NCBI GenBank assembly: GCA_040877935.1 | Contig: JBBDNB010000012.1 | Span: forward strand, 62,001 to 126,000 | Reading direction: 5' to 3' | Length of the DNA: 64,000 bases | Origin: Chitinophagales bacterium | GTDB lineage: Bacteria; Bacteroidota; Bacteroidia; Chitinophagales; CAIOSU01 | Part shown: positions 28,733 through 38,212 of the stretch, piece by piece | Position numbering within the stretch: the first letter of the stretch is position 1 | How the letters are laid out: every line of letters begins with the position of its first letter | Position numbers and translations under genes: made by a program | Notes under the pieces: generated by a model | Told to the model about the DNA's origin: nothing | The model's input: only the letters and a program-made list of their open reading frames with translations | The model's database searches: none

Positions 28733-30256
28733 TTAAGGCTCAATTTTTATTTCTTTATAAGTTACGGCTTTATTCAACTTGGTTATATGATAATTGATAT
28801 CATACTTACCTTTTTTGTGGGATGTAGAGTTGAATTTATTTTTTACATCCTGTAATATTTCTTGAGGGATGTTTTCTTCTGATTTAACTTGAAATGTTGA
28901 GTTTTTTTTCACAATTAATATAAAATCAACTTGATAGTTTTCTATATTTATAGGGTAAGTTGCTCTACTTTGCATATAGAGATTATTTTGGTAAATGCAT
29001 GTCCTAAGTTTATCAGATATATCTGGGATCCAGTACTCTATTATTTTTAATATATGAGAACTATCAGTATGCAAATCATATTCAATTTCAGACCTCCCAT
29101 TTGAATCGCAATCTAAATGGATAAAACCTTTTAATGAGTAACTGTAATTTTGATTTTTTAATTTTTCTAAGATATAGTTCTCTATTATTTCTTTTCTTTT
29201 TAAGTAAAGGGTTTTATTATGTTCTTCAACATTAATAATTGTGTTGCTTCTGAGGTTTAAAAACTCGTTATGTTTGGCTTTTACTTTTGCTATTCTTATT
29301 GAATCCTCCTCAATTTTCCTTAATCGGTCTAGTTCTCTTTTTTCGCGTGATAAATCATAAGGTATGATAATAAATACAGGATTGTACTCTTTTAAATAGT
29401 CTTCAAGGCTGGCTGCTACATAATCTTTATAATAGAGGCGAAATGGATCTTCATAAAAAAATAACAATCTACCAACTGAATACCTCCAAACAATATCGTC
29501 TGGCTGAAATGCAATATGGTTTTTAGCTATATATTTTATTGAGTCATTTTTTGGGTAAAGTAATTCTTTGCTTTGATGAGGTAATGAGACATATTCAATT
29601 CCATCTATAAAGGATGTATTTGATGACTTATCAAAATTCACATGAAAATTTCTAACAAACTCTGAAATATCGAGTTTCTTAATTATTCTACCTGTCTGTA
29701 TATTGCGCTTAAGCCTCCAATATAATATTCCTTTATCATATTTTTGAATATCTTCAATCTCAATAAAAGTATTGTTTTTCTTTATTTTTTCTTTTATTAA
29801 CCATTTGCCATCAAAAATACCTTCTTTGTTAAAATTGCCTTCAACATATAAATCACTGTGATTGTTGAAGTAAAATTCTCCTATTAATTTTCCATCCTTA
29901 AAAGTGCATGAACTTATCAGTGTTTTATTTGCTCCATCAATTTTAATTTTCGTCCATTTACCGTCTAATTTATCATCCTTGAAATTTCCAGATTGAACTA
30001 TATTGTCAGATATAAATTTCCATTCGCCAACTTTTAATCCATTTGCATATTGTCCTTTTATTTCATTTTTATTACCTGATTCTGATTTCCGTATATATGT
30101 GAATGCACCATGGTATATTCTTTCGTAGGCATCATTTTCATAATACTCATAAGTAGCCTCTCCACCTTTATAAGATCCCTTATAAGTTTTAATGTTTTGA
30201 GCAATAGATGCATAGTGTATAAAACACAAGCACAGAAGTATGCATTTATAAATCAT
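28733..30256 (-). CDS. Exported MORN/YwqK-repeat-like protein
   Basis: 507 residues with a signal peptide (MIYKCILLCLCFIHYASIAQ). Residues about 20-160 contain repeated G-x-Y/F-x(n)-G-x-W units: GQYANGLKVGEWKF, GNFKDDKLDGKWTK, GEFYFN and GNFNKEGIFDGKWLI, typical of MORN/toxin-antitoxin YwqK-like repeats. The second half is charged, with a coiled-coil-like stretch (LSREKREL...EEDSIRIAKVKAKHNEF near 305-340), and ends in a small domain with no name. The ATG overlaps the stop of the small upstream gene by four bases. Function unknown. Confidence 0.72.
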   Translation of the reverse strand: MIYKCILLCLCFIHYASIAQNIKTYKGSYKGGEATYEYYENDAYERIYHGAFTYIRKSESGNKNEIKGQYANGLKVGEWKFISDNIVQSGNFKDDKLDGKWTKIKIDGANKTLISSCTFKDGKLIGEFYFNNHSDLYVEGNFNKEGIFDGKWLIKEKIKKNNTFIEIEDIQKYDKGILYWRLKRNIQTGRIIKKLDISEFVRNFHVNFDKSSNTSFIDGIEYVSLPHQSKELLYPKNDSIKYIAKNHIAFQPDDIVWRYSVGRLLFFYEDPFRLYYKDYVAASLEDYLKEYNPVFIIIPYDLSREKRELDRLRKIEEDSIRIAKVKAKHNEFLNLRSNTIINVEEHNKTLYLKRKEIIENYILEKLKNQNYSYSLKGFIHLDCDSNGRSEIEYDLHTDSSHILKIIEYWIPDISDKLRTCIYQNNLYMQSRATYPINIENYQVDFILIVKKNSTFQVKSEENIPQEILQDVKNKFNSTSHKKGKYDINYHITKLNKAVTYKEIKIEP

Positions 30257-30510
30257 CTTTGAATATCCTTTATAAAATCCCTCAAAGCTTCAATAATAAG
30301 CTTGTTATTAGAATTGTTTTCGTTTAATATACTTTTTAATATTTGAATAGATAATTGATCAGGGATAATAAACCACATTGGATTACCAAATACTTTAGGA
30401 TAACTTACATCTTCAGAATTATAATCATCGCCATTCCATCTCATAGCTATAACACTATAATCGTTTTCCCAAATCCCTGAGATAATGGAAAACTTATCAT
30501 TATCATACAA
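30253..30510 (-). CDS. Small hypothetical protein, start codon uncertain (possibly a gene remnant)
   Basis: 85 residues if the TTG at 30510 starts translation. The frame is open a further ten codons to a TAA but has no ATG, GTG or other TTG there. The reading frame is tightly coupled to the next gene (ATGA overlap), which supports expression. The sequence is soluble, with a conserved-looking FGNPMWFIIPDQLSIQILKS core. I recognise no family. It may be the 3' end of a longer gene trimmed by recombination, as the flank carries a cassette-like inverted repeat. Confidence 0.45.
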   Translation of the reverse strand: MYDNDKFSIISGIWENDYSVIAMRWNGDDYNSEDVSYPKVFGNPMWFIIPDQLSIQILKSILNENNSNNKLIIEALRDFIKDIQR

Positions 30511-30654
30511 TATTTTTCTATATTCATTTTTTTGAATTTACTAATCTTGGATTTATTTATCAAAGTTAATTTTTTTCTGGGTATGTAAAGGGTAGAAGCA
30601 GTATCCATTGGAAGAAGGTTCGCATTTTCTCTGCTGAAAGCTTTGCTGCAAATG

Positions 30655-30775
30655 CGCTACAACTTGGGGGCAGTTGGGGGCTCTAACTTTTCGTTTTAGT
30701 ACTGACTTTTATTTCATTCACTTACTTTTCAGTTAAACAACTATACCCCAATTGATTATAGCCGATGTTGTAGCG
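30655..30775. repeat. Cassette-like inverted repeat downstream of the HEPN gene
   Basis: CGCTACAAC (30655-30663) and GTTGTAGCG (30767-30775) are exact complements 103 bases apart. Just inside, TTGGGG (30664-30669) pairs with CCCCAA (30746-30751). The layout resembles a recombination or folding site at a gene-cassette junction. The surrounding gap (30511-30797) has no gene. Confidence 0.55.
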
Positions 30776-30797
30776 GTTGTTTTTTATATTCTAAAAT

Positions 30798-31520
30798 TTA
30801 ATTATTATCAATTGTTACTAAATATTTTTTATACAATTCTATGAATACCTTGTCTATCAAAACCAATAGAAAAAAGTAAATAAAATAGTTTTCGTATTTG
30901 TGGTCTTCATTTGCTAATGTTTTTAGTGTTGGCAAATTCTGTTGATACGAGGGAGTGTTGTGTGCAATTCGATTTCTTTGCCTATACAAATGCTTTTCAT
31001 ACATTTTTTTCAATGATGTGTTTGCAAATAAGGTCGCTTTTTCATTAGCAAAATGTGTGGCTTTAATATCCTTTAAAATTGACTCAAAACTTAGAATATC
31101 TTTCTGTGCCCAAATTGATAAATTGGTATTTGAAAATGTATCTAAAATATCCGAAGAAGTTGTTATCAATATATCTTTTTTATCAATATCAATATTAGAA
31201 AACTTTAAACCATATTTTTCAATTTGCTTTATCAATTCCTTGTAAATCTTTTGCTTTTCTGAATAGCTTGAACATTCACCAAAAGGCATTCTTGTAAAAT
31301 CATATCTGTATTCGTAATCAACGGTCGCCATTTCCCAACAGACACATTTCATTTTCTGTTCTTGAAATCCTGTCATTTTTAGAAATACGGATTGCATTAC
31401 ATAGTCACACAAGGGAAAGGTTTCAATTCCACTTCCTATTCCTGTACTTGCAGACACAATATCTTTCAAAATGTCTGTAATTGGTGATAATATGAAATCG
31501 GTGTGATTGTTAGGACGCAT
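30798..31520 (-). CDS. HEPN-domain protein, probable RNase partner of the DUF262 protein
   Basis: 240 residues, soluble. The C-terminal part has the HEPN ribonuclease signature R-x4-H as QRNRIAHN (181-188: Arg182, His187) between long helices, followed by YFIYFFLLVLIDKVFIELYKKYL. The layout resembles the MAE_28990/MAE_18760-type HEPN-like nucleases. The first 100 residues are less clear. Its start overlaps the end of the DUF262 gene by 11 bases, so the two are translated together. In HEPN systems the RNase is kept quiet by a partner and released on infection or stress; that role here is inferred. Confidence 0.75.
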   Translation of the reverse strand: MRPNNHTDFILSPITDILKDIVSASTGIGSGIETFPLCDYVMQSVFLKMTGFQEQKMKCVCWEMATVDYEYRYDFTRMPFGECSSYSEKQKIYKELIKQIEKYGLKFSNIDIDKKDILITTSSDILDTFSNTNLSIWAQKDILSFESILKDIKATHFANEKATLFANTSLKKMYEKHLYRQRNRIAHNTPSYQQNLPTLKTLANEDHKYENYFIYFFLLVLIDKVFIELYKKYLVTIDNN

Positions 31521-32682
31521 ACTTTTCGAATACTTCTATTGATGAACTAATTCGCGACCTTAAATGTCCTAAGTTACTTGGTGCTTTTGTATGTGAGTTA
31601 TCATTTTTGAACACACTTATTTTAGTTTCAATTTTTTGTTTTAGTTCGTCTTTTTTTGTATTGTCTATCGTTTTGTTTTCAAAGACAATTGTGTATGTAA
31701 GACCAAAGAAATACATATCCAAATCAATAATTGATGGAAATTGATTTTTGATTTCCAATGAATTTAACGCTTGTTTCAAATTTAATAAACGGGCCTCATA
31801 TTGTTTGTTCGGGAATATGCTTGAAAACTTCCCATACTTATCATCAGTATCGGCAATAACGGAATAAATATATTCTTCGTAATACTTTTCCATTTTTGGT
31901 TTATAACTGCGTGCAACCTTGTTTACTGAATTTTCTTTGTTGAATTGCGACAATAAAGACAAACATCTAACAAAGTCAATTTTTGTTTCGCTACTCACAC
32001 CTTTTACCGCAAATGTTTTAGTGAAGTCGGGCACAAAAAACTGAACTAAATTTTGATCTAAAAAATATAAAGAAGCTCTACTTTCCTGTGGCAATAAAGC
32101 TTCACCTTGTATGTTTATATTTCTAAAAACGGAAGAGTAATATTTTTGCTGCTCCCTTTCATCTGTAACAAAAGGCACCAAGTAAGAAAAGCCTAAAAAT
32201 GTAGTTTCAAGAAACATATCGTCTATCTTGAAATCTATTTTTTTGTAGTTCCCGTCAGTAATTTTTGTAAGAATTTCTTGTTTGTTTTTTCCTTTTTCGG
32301 TTAATTTTTCAAACTTCCATTCAAGAATGTTGTCAAGTTGTTCGTCTATTTCTTCTTCGTCATCATTTTCATTTGCGAATTTTTCTATAGCTTTTTTGTA
32401 TGTGGTCTCGTCAGGGAATAAACTAAGGTATGCTAACAAAACACTTGTTAATCGCTGCTGTCCATCAAGTATTAAATTTTGATTATTATTTTTATTCTTA
32501 AAAGCTCCAATTGTCACGGGAGGAACAAATTGTTTTTTCTTAAATGTATCAATTAAGGTTTCAACTTTTTTTTCATTCCAAACAAAATATCGTTGATAGT
32601 CCGGAAGTATGATATTCTTTTTCAGAATTAATTCTATCCAATGTTTCAGACAATACTCCCCGTAATAAACTCTGTTGTCCAT
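31510..32682 (-). CDS. DUF262 (ParB/GmrS-like) protein of a probable defence pair
   Basis: 390 residues. The N-terminal domain carries LPDYQRYFVW (26-35) and LDGQQRLTSVLLAYL (72-86), the hallmarks of DUF262, a ParB-like nucleotide-binding fold found in GmrSD and related anti-phage systems. The C-terminus has no DUF1524 HNH nuclease motif, unlike GmrD-fused forms. The downstream gene, overlapping by 11 bases, supplies a HEPN RNase instead. The DUF262 part probably senses nucleotide or modified DNA and controls the partner; this is inference from related systems. Confidence 0.8.
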   Translation of the reverse strand: MDNRVYYGEYCLKHWIELILKKNIILPDYQRYFVWNEKKVETLIDTFKKKQFVPPVTIGAFKNKNNNQNLILDGQQRLTSVLLAYLSLFPDETTYKKAIEKFANENDDEEEIDEQLDNILEWKFEKLTEKGKNKQEILTKITDGNYKKIDFKIDDMFLETTFLGFSYLVPFVTDEREQQKYYSSVFRNINIQGEALLPQESRASLYFLDQNLVQFFVPDFTKTFAVKGVSSETKIDFVRCLSLLSQFNKENSVNKVARSYKPKMEKYYEEYIYSVIADTDDKYGKFSSIFPNKQYEARLLNLKQALNSLEIKNQFPSIIDLDMYFFGLTYTIVFENKTIDNTKKDELKQKIETKISVFKNDNSHTKAPSNLGHLRSRISSSIEVFEKYAS

Positions 32683-33141
32683 AAATTATTTTTCTTTACT
32701 GTGGTTCTTACCATTGTGCATTGTCGTCTTTAAGTAACCACTCATTTAACCCTCATAAAACTTCTTATACCTGACATGTAAGATTGTTGTATATACACAA
32801 GTGGTGTTAGGGTTTATCTATTGTAAATGTACATTTTTTCACAATTCATCAATAGGACTTTTAATATTTTTTATTCAATCAATCATCTATAAAAACGTGG
32901 TTTGGTTGTTCGGCTTAATCTTTGGAGATTCCCCGATCTTTAGTTCTAAGGGACATAAAGTCGGGGAATGACGGGGTTTCAAAAGGTATGGTAGTTTCCT
33001 AGACCTAAAATAAAAGCCGTCCTTTAGAATCCTTAGAGCGTGGCTTTGTGTGTTGGCTAAGGATGTGGCAATCTCCCAAATCCTACCAGATTCTTCCCTT
33101 CGCTTCCTGCCCCTGCCGATTCAGGCGGGTGCTCCGTTCTG

Positions 33142-33174
33142 CCCGCCCGTACCGAAAAGGTACGTTCGGGCGGG
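33142..33174. repeat. GC-rich hairpin
   Basis: CCCGCCCG (33142-33149) and TACC (33150-33153) pair with GGTA (33159-33162) and CGGGCGGG (33167-33174), with a CGTT bulge. The arms resemble those of the 26572-26669 element, so this is probably the same intergenic repeat family. Confidence 0.6.
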
Positions 33175-37453: not shown

Positions 37454-37466
37454 TTTGATGTGTGTT

Positions 37467-37796
37467 ATGAAAGTTCACTTAATCAAATGGAAATCTGTTG
37501 AAGGATTCATTTTGAATCACGCGCGTTCAAAAGTATCATTTGAAGGCTTTAAAGAAAGTATTAAACAGGCAGATTGGAACTCGATCAATGATGTTCAGCA
37601 AACATTTGCTTCAGCAGATTTAATAAGTAACAATAGAATAGTTTTTAACATTGGAGGTAATAATTATCGTATGATTTGTGCTTTTTGGTTTGGCCCTAAA
37701 ATGGTTCATCTATACTTGAAATGGATTGGCACACATGCAGAGTACACAAAATTATGCAGCAGAAACCTTCAATATTCAATTGATAAATTTTCATGA
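37467..37796 (+). CDS. higB: HigB-type toxin (mRNA interferase)
   Basis: 109 residues from ATG 37467; an ATG at 37458 is also in frame, but it coincides with the likely -7 box, so the later start fits a near-leaderless mRNA. The HigB family (PF09907) is recognised by VFNIGGNNYRMICAFWFG (about 56-73) and VHLYLKWIGTHAEYTKL near residue 80. It cleaves mRNA at the ribosome and is held in check by HigA. The antitoxin gene overlaps its stop by four bases. Confidence 0.88.
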   Translation: MKVHLIKWKSVEGFILNHARSKVSFEGFKESIKQADWNSINDVQQTFASADLISNNRIVFNIGGNNYRMICAFWFGPKMVHLYLKWIGTHAEYTKLCSRNLQYSIDKFS

Positions 37797-38212
37797 AAAT
37801 GACGAACTATATTATCATCAGGACAGAAGATCAATATTATGCTTATTGCAATGAACTCGAAAGATTGAGCTCAAAATACCAAGACAATCCTTCTGATGTG
37901 TTATTGGATAAGATAGAAACGCTTACACTGCTAATAGAACATTATGACCAAGAACATTCAAGTCTCAATGAGCTTGACCCCATTGAACTGTTGAAGTATT
38001 TGATGAAAGAAAATCAATTGAAGCAAATAGAACTGGCGAATCTGCTTCAGATTTCAAAAGGGCATTTGTCAGATATATTAAGCTACAAAAAAGGTCTTTC
38101 CAAAAATATCATTCGATTGCTTTCTGAAAGATTCAAGGTAAGGCAGAGTGCTTTTAACAGACCCTATAAATTAATTTCAGATATTGACAAGCAGTACAGA
38201 AATGCGAGTTGA
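37793..38212 (+). CDS. higA: HigA-type antitoxin (Xre helix-turn-helix)
   Basis: 139 residues. The C-terminal half has an Xre HTH: LMKENQLKQIELANLLQIS (about 76-94) and GHLSDILSYKKGLSKNIIRLL. The N-terminal half is the toxin-binding region. Its ATG overlaps the toxin stop by four bases, which couples expression. It probably represses the operon through the palindromes at 37415-37453. Confidence 0.88.
   Translation: MKMTNYIIIRTEDQYYAYCNELERLSSKYQDNPSDVLLDKIETLTLLIEHYDQEHSSLNELDPIELLKYLMKENQLKQIELANLLQISKGHLSDILSYKKGLSKNIIRLLSERFKVRQSAFNRPYKLISDIDKQYRNAS

Follow-up and report, generated by a model that had tools for sequence, protein, structure and literature searches.

A recurrent pair of overlapping DUF262 and HEPN-like genes as a candidate two-gene anti-phage module

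In a Chitinophagales bacterium we identified two overlapping genes encoding a DUF262 protein and a HEPN-like protein, which probably form a self-contained two-gene anti-phage module where a DUF262 sensor or switch gates a HEPN RNase. Related pairs occur in several phyla with the same gene order and the same conserved motif residues, and genes of known defence families are concentrated around them. The features below are numbered along the window, i.e. the whole stretch of 64,000 nucleotides that was analyzed.

31510..32682, minus strand: first gene, DUF262/GmrSD_N protein of 390 aa (Pfam GmrSD_N); proposed sensor and NTP switch
30798..31520, minus strand: second gene, HEPN-like protein of 240 aa, R182-x4-H187 (RNRIAHN); proposed RNase effector
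31510..31520, minus strand: overlap of the two genes, 11 nt, from the ORF coordinates
28733..33000, no strand assigned: AT-rich stretch with the pair inside, G+C 29.6%

The gene pair and its encoded proteins

As originally predicted, the end of the DUF262 gene overlaps the HEPN gene, both being on the minus strand, and the 11-nt overlap makes translational coupling of the two genes likely. The pair is present in one copy in its own genome and has a G+C content of 30.1%, close to the 29.6% of the surrounding stretch (28733-33000) and well below the 38.1% of the whole window. Only three of 125 segments of the same length (1.9 kb) were as low, which suggests that the pair was acquired and agrees with the AT-rich, accessory context first proposed. 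The cassette-like inverted repeat thought to frame the pair was not found; the searches gave only weak long-range repeats and one local hairpin. The hairpin (~33143-33174) is G+C-rich and belongs to the long intergenic region that precedes the DUF262 gene; the genome contains its right arm only once. The HEPN gene is directly followed downstream by two AT-rich genes of no assigned family (28733-30510, minus strand): one encodes 507 aa and repeats a GxYxNGxKxGxW-like stretch, the other is an overlapping ORF of 85 aa; Pfam, PADLOC, and NCBIfam searches gave zero matches for both. Within the window the pair stands amid housekeeping genes, and the sole defence- or toxin-type neighbour is the HigBA pair noted earlier, 5 kb away (37455-38212, plus strand), where a HigB-type toxin (PF09907, E 2e-24) overlaps with an HTH protein scoring just below the HTH_3 cut-off.

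The 390-aa protein matches Pfam GmrSD_N (DUF262) with an E-value of 2.2e-23 and contains the motif LPDYQRYFVW (residues 26-35) and the nucleotide motif DGQQR (residues 73-77, in ILDGQQR), of which D73, G74, Q75, and R77 are invariant across 37 DUF262 sequences. The AlphaFold2 model (pLDDT 86.4) found its best match among solved structures in BrxU (Z 8.3, rmsd 13.4, 271 residues aligned), followed by SspE (Z 7.2, rmsd 4.2, 149 residues), and also resembled ParB and sulfiredoxin (Z ~6). A DUF262 protein with DGQQR and a ParB-like fold had been predicted from the outset, and both the Pfam match and the model agree with this. Neither DUF1524/HNH nor any other nuclease domain was detected by Pfam in the 390-aa protein, and DUF1524 is missing from both genes, in line with the expected difference from GmrSD. 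A match to LytR in NCBIfam (E 1.7e-4) was discarded as chance, as it scored 21 bits against the 450 needed.

The HEPN motif RNRIAHN is intact in the 240-aa protein (residues 182-188), as the original prediction held, and none of the 39 HEPN sequences differs at R182, N183, A186, H187, or N188. A second conserved region is the helix TGFQEQKMKC..WE at residues 50-63 (TGxxEQKMK..W across the 39 sequences). When a far more distant sequence from a viral contig (L127) was added, R182, A186, H187, N188, G51, E54, Q55, K56, and W62 were still invariant, while N183 was replaced by H. Four loci (L031, L033, L039, and L045) have long insertions, up to ~150 aa in L045, in the central part of the protein, which is variable and lies away from the motif.

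The HEPN half is missed by both Pfam and PADLOC at their cut-offs. The 240-aa protein scores 15.1 bits with HEPN_MAE_28990 (PF18737) against a cut-off of 26.8, and only two of the 39 family members match this model even at E 1; in some members, sub-threshold matches to PADLOC AbiD and to Pfam HEPN models were observed. Except for one short hairpin, the structural model (pLDDT 87.7) consists of helices only, and searches of the PDB, a second look with VIA-align 2, and BFVD gave no convincing match and no known HEPN. In profile comparisons with known DUF262-linked HEPN families, the family scored above all 40 column shuffles for two families, the likeness being confined to the motif region. Other DUF262-linked HEPN proteins carry RNRLAHG, RNAIAHG, or RHNIAHG at a similar distance from the end. 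The HEPN label is thus based on the motif, its position, the helical content, and the operon position, and not on a fold match. For the predicted HEPN-type RNase, the motif stood, a HEPN fold was not recovered by structure search, and the RNase activity is putative.

Recurrence, linkage and defence neighbourhood

Starting from the HEPN alignment, 84,980 species genomes were scanned via short conserved peptides, which gave 40 related loci, a number from which more divergent members will be missing. A DUF262 gene was located directly upstream on the same strand in all 40 loci; as the scan began from the HEPN half, how often such DUF262 proteins occur alone cannot be read from this figure. The two genes overlap by 1-23 nt in 37 of the 40 loci, abut in one, and are frameshifted copies in the remaining two. 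The recurrence of order, strand, and overlap, together with the invariant motif residues, indicates that the pair is more than a chance association. No recurrent third gene was found, the commonest neighbour family being present in three loci, and the module therefore consists of two genes.

According to the submitters' titles, the hosts belong to six phyla (Bacteroidota, Bacillota, Pseudomonadota, Thermodesulfobacteriota, Cyanobacteriota, and Lentisphaerota). Hosts of different phyla are interleaved on the trees, which fits horizontal transfer, bearing in mind that metagenome bins can mislead. Two loci with near-identical modules and flanks (L035 and L036) come from bins labelled Lachnospiraceae and Prevotella, reflecting either recent transfer or mis-binning. 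The pair is rare, with matches in three of 99 relatives (own genome and one weak spurious match included) and in two of 395 genomes of the phylum (own genome included), and no relatives were found on 72,556 plasmids or in the phages and E. coli genomes searched. One viral contig (L046) has the pair, again with DUF262 as the gene immediately before HEPN and both on one strand. The distant pair on L127 shows the same order, a 4-nt overlap, and the motif RHSIAHN, in which R and H are kept; against the family profiles its DUF262 protein scores 267 bits and its partner 75 bits. In two further loci, L012 (3893-5825) and L017 (8794-10735), the HEPN protein is ~60% identical to that of the window and the DUF262 protein only ~42%, and the HEPN and DUF262 trees place these loci differently. 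Judged from these sequences, it looks like the sensor half has been replaced or is changing fast.

To assess the neighbourhood, 129 ORFs from 20 loci, all no more than 4.5 kb from the pair, were set against 129 ORFs of distant regions on the same contigs. These control ORFs come from 16 regions, where a single long ORF (in L078) was omitted, and from a seventeenth that contributed one ORF; regions beyond these were left out. At E 1e-15, 69 PADLOC families were matched in the near set and four in the control set; the ORFs were simply called, and the counts are model families rather than systems, as several models can match one protein. Among the near-set matches were ThsA, LmuB, PbeA, type I restriction and specificity subunits, and several candidate defence families. 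Pfam identified TIR in three, SIR2 in two, and ResIII in two of the near-set proteins, while the control proteins were assigned to metabolism and transport. In L005, a gene for an AbiP2 reverse transcriptase adjoins the HEPN gene and follows it. Enrichment near defence genes in homologues, on which the original prediction had staked its refutation, is therefore present.

Proposed function and alternative explanations

In SspE, the arginine of DGQQR drives GTP hydrolysis after recognition of modified DNA, which licenses the nuclease (PMC13251355). By analogy, the DUF262 protein may sense infection and gate the HEPN RNase. It would detect an infection cue, possibly foreign or modified DNA as in GmrSD, BrxU, and SspE, and bind or hydrolyze an NTP at DGQQR. 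A change of state in the DUF262 protein would then release or activate the HEPN protein that the overlapping gene encodes, and a HEPN dimer would cleave RNA via R182 and H187, stopping phage growth or the infected cell. The data themselves show the gene pair, its conservation and linkage, its occurrence in several phyla, and its defence neighbourhood; we infer the cue, the use of NTP, complex formation, the RNase activity, and the outcome. Concerning defence by RNA cleavage as first proposed, the defence neighbourhood is in agreement, and for the RNase activity and phage defence themselves the argument draws on related systems. The invariant catalytic-type residues on both proteins count for such a module, and the protection against T4 by the similarly built PD-T4-2 counts for a role in phage defence. 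The missing HEPN structure match, the motif-only profile likeness, and the housekeeping surroundings in the window count against the module.

An unlikely but reasonable alternative is a plain toxin-antitoxin (addiction) system, with the HEPN protein as RNase toxin, the DUF262 protein as antitoxin, and a role that lies mainly in maintenance on mobile DNA and not in phage sensing. An overlapping gene pair with a motif of the HEPN type would suit such a system, there are HEPN toxins whose partners handle nucleotides (HEPN-MNT; PMC7641770), a HigBA pair is situated 5 kb away, and the HEPN gene never occurs without the DUF262 gene in the related loci, in a search that started from HEPN. However, the DUF262 protein exceeds the size usual for antitoxins, its domain family is found in defence as sensor or NTPase, the search of 72,556 plasmids yielded no relatives, and the defence neighbourhood is strong. 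Sequence evidence does not separate phage defence from a maintenance role, and it is the neighbourhood that favours defence.

We consider it considerably less probable that the DUF262 protein is itself the effector, as a ParB/Srx-type DNA nuclease or nickase resembling type IV restriction, with a helical partner that is structural or regulatory rather than an RNase. DUF262 is the half with a clear fold match, and a 2013 survey of HEPN proteins terms the gene paired with HEPN a 'ParB nuclease' (PMC3710099), but the 390 residues lack DUF1524/HNH or any other nuclease domain, and the helical partner shows no variation at R182 and H187 in any phylum or in L127, which is what a catalytic pair would be expected to show. 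Slightly more improbable still, in our view, is that the second gene does not encode a HEPN protein and that RNRxAHN matches by chance in a helical fold of another kind. This would account for the lack of significant structural or full-length profile matches to HEPN; against it are the similar distance of the motif from the end in other DUF262-linked HEPN proteins, a local profile score that, for two HEPN families, exceeds each of 40 column-shuffled controls (motif only), and the matches below threshold that some members give with Pfam HEPN and PADLOC AbiD.

Relation to known systems

The work adds a widespread, strictly linked pair to a known and mechanistically unsolved class, DUF262 proteins without DUF1524, and its effector half is missed by current defence-gene libraries. 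The system is compact, and as catalytic residues can be predicted for both proteins, control of a non-DNase partner by DUF262 is directly testable. The family may also aid annotation, since Pfam and PADLOC both overlook its HEPN half at their cut-offs. More tentatively, and with our doubts outweighing our confidence, it is possible that an undescribed HEPN effector family paired with its own DUF262 protein separately from PD-T4-2 and MAE_28990, that the sensor is exchangeable while the effector stays (as in L012 and L017), and that DUF262 is a general plug-in trigger for different killers, including HNH, ATPase, and several HEPN families.

By its domains PD-T4-2 is a DUF262 and HEPN system (PMC10952713). 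It confers protection against T4 on E. coli, and T4 plaquing returns when it is deleted from the native strain (PMC9519451; Vassallo et al. 2022). Shared with PD-T4-2 are the overlapping two-gene order, DUF262 then HEPN, and the defence settings, whereas the HEPN protein of the window has 240 aa compared to 168 aa and does not match PD-T4-2_B. Neither the window protein nor 38 relatives match the PD-T4-2_B model at E 1, and there is no match in the bacterium's own genome. The PD-T4-2_A model matches the window DUF262 protein along its length (E 2.5e-9), and HEC-05 scores equally well. In the DUF262 tree the window-type proteins form a clade (100/100) outside the clade (100/99) of PD-T4-2, Menshen, and other HEPN-linked DUF262 proteins. 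Identity as PD-T4-2 was ruled out by the lack of a B-subunit match and the different position of the DUF262 protein in the tree. In a topology test, a single clade of all HEPN-linked DUF262 proteins was not rejected (p-AU 0.209), and an independent origin of the pairing was therefore dropped as a claim. A PD-T4-2 pair proper (PD-T4-2_B, E 8.3e-51) was observed in L055 (384-3492), between type I restriction specificity-like and HsdR-like genes.

The 2013 survey (Anantharaman et al.) places the MAE_28990 HEPN in operons with 'ParB nuclease' and DNA methylase genes, and in Bacteroidota we found DUF262 directly upstream in 11 of 12 PF18737 loci. In L060 (1-2208) and L061 (2-2175), the DUF262 and MAE_28990 HEPN genes directly follow a DNA cytosine methyltransferase-like gene. 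The window pair resembles this type in the upstream, overlapping DUF262 gene, RN/RHxxAH ~50 residues from the end, and a similar length, but its HEPN protein is below the PF18737 cut-off with profile likeness limited to the motif, and no methylase lies beside it. Other DUF262 genes are followed by HEPN-like genes of 168-171 aa with WRNDFAH or WRHDFAH amid phage structural-looking genes (L128, 4926-6508; L129, 823-2395). A genome of the same family has DUF262 followed by a 166-aa protein with RHKYVH, a HEPN-like pair of a different HEPN type (L048, 1489-3077).

With the type IV restriction systems GmrSD, BrxU, and SspE, the pair shares the DUF262 domain with DGQQR and a matching fold, but instead of a DUF1524 nuclease there is a separate helical partner gene. 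Menshen (PADLOC NsnA/NsnB) likewise has a DUF262 protein followed by an overlapping effector gene; its partner is an ABC-type ATPase and not HEPN, and its DUF262 protein belongs to another clade. Elsewhere among the loci examined, DUF262 genes precede genes for ABC-type ATPases like those of Menshen. HEPN-MNT (HepT-MntA, type VII) combines a HEPN-type RNase motif with a nucleotide-handling partner, which is a minimal nucleotidyltransferase (MNT) where the window has DUF262. A HEPN partner for DUF262 is not as unusual as first supposed, PD-T4-2 and the MAE_28990-'ParB' pairs having been described earlier and such dyads being common in Bacteroidota. The DUF262-HEPN architecture is known and common, and the pair in the window is a separate, divergent branch of it.
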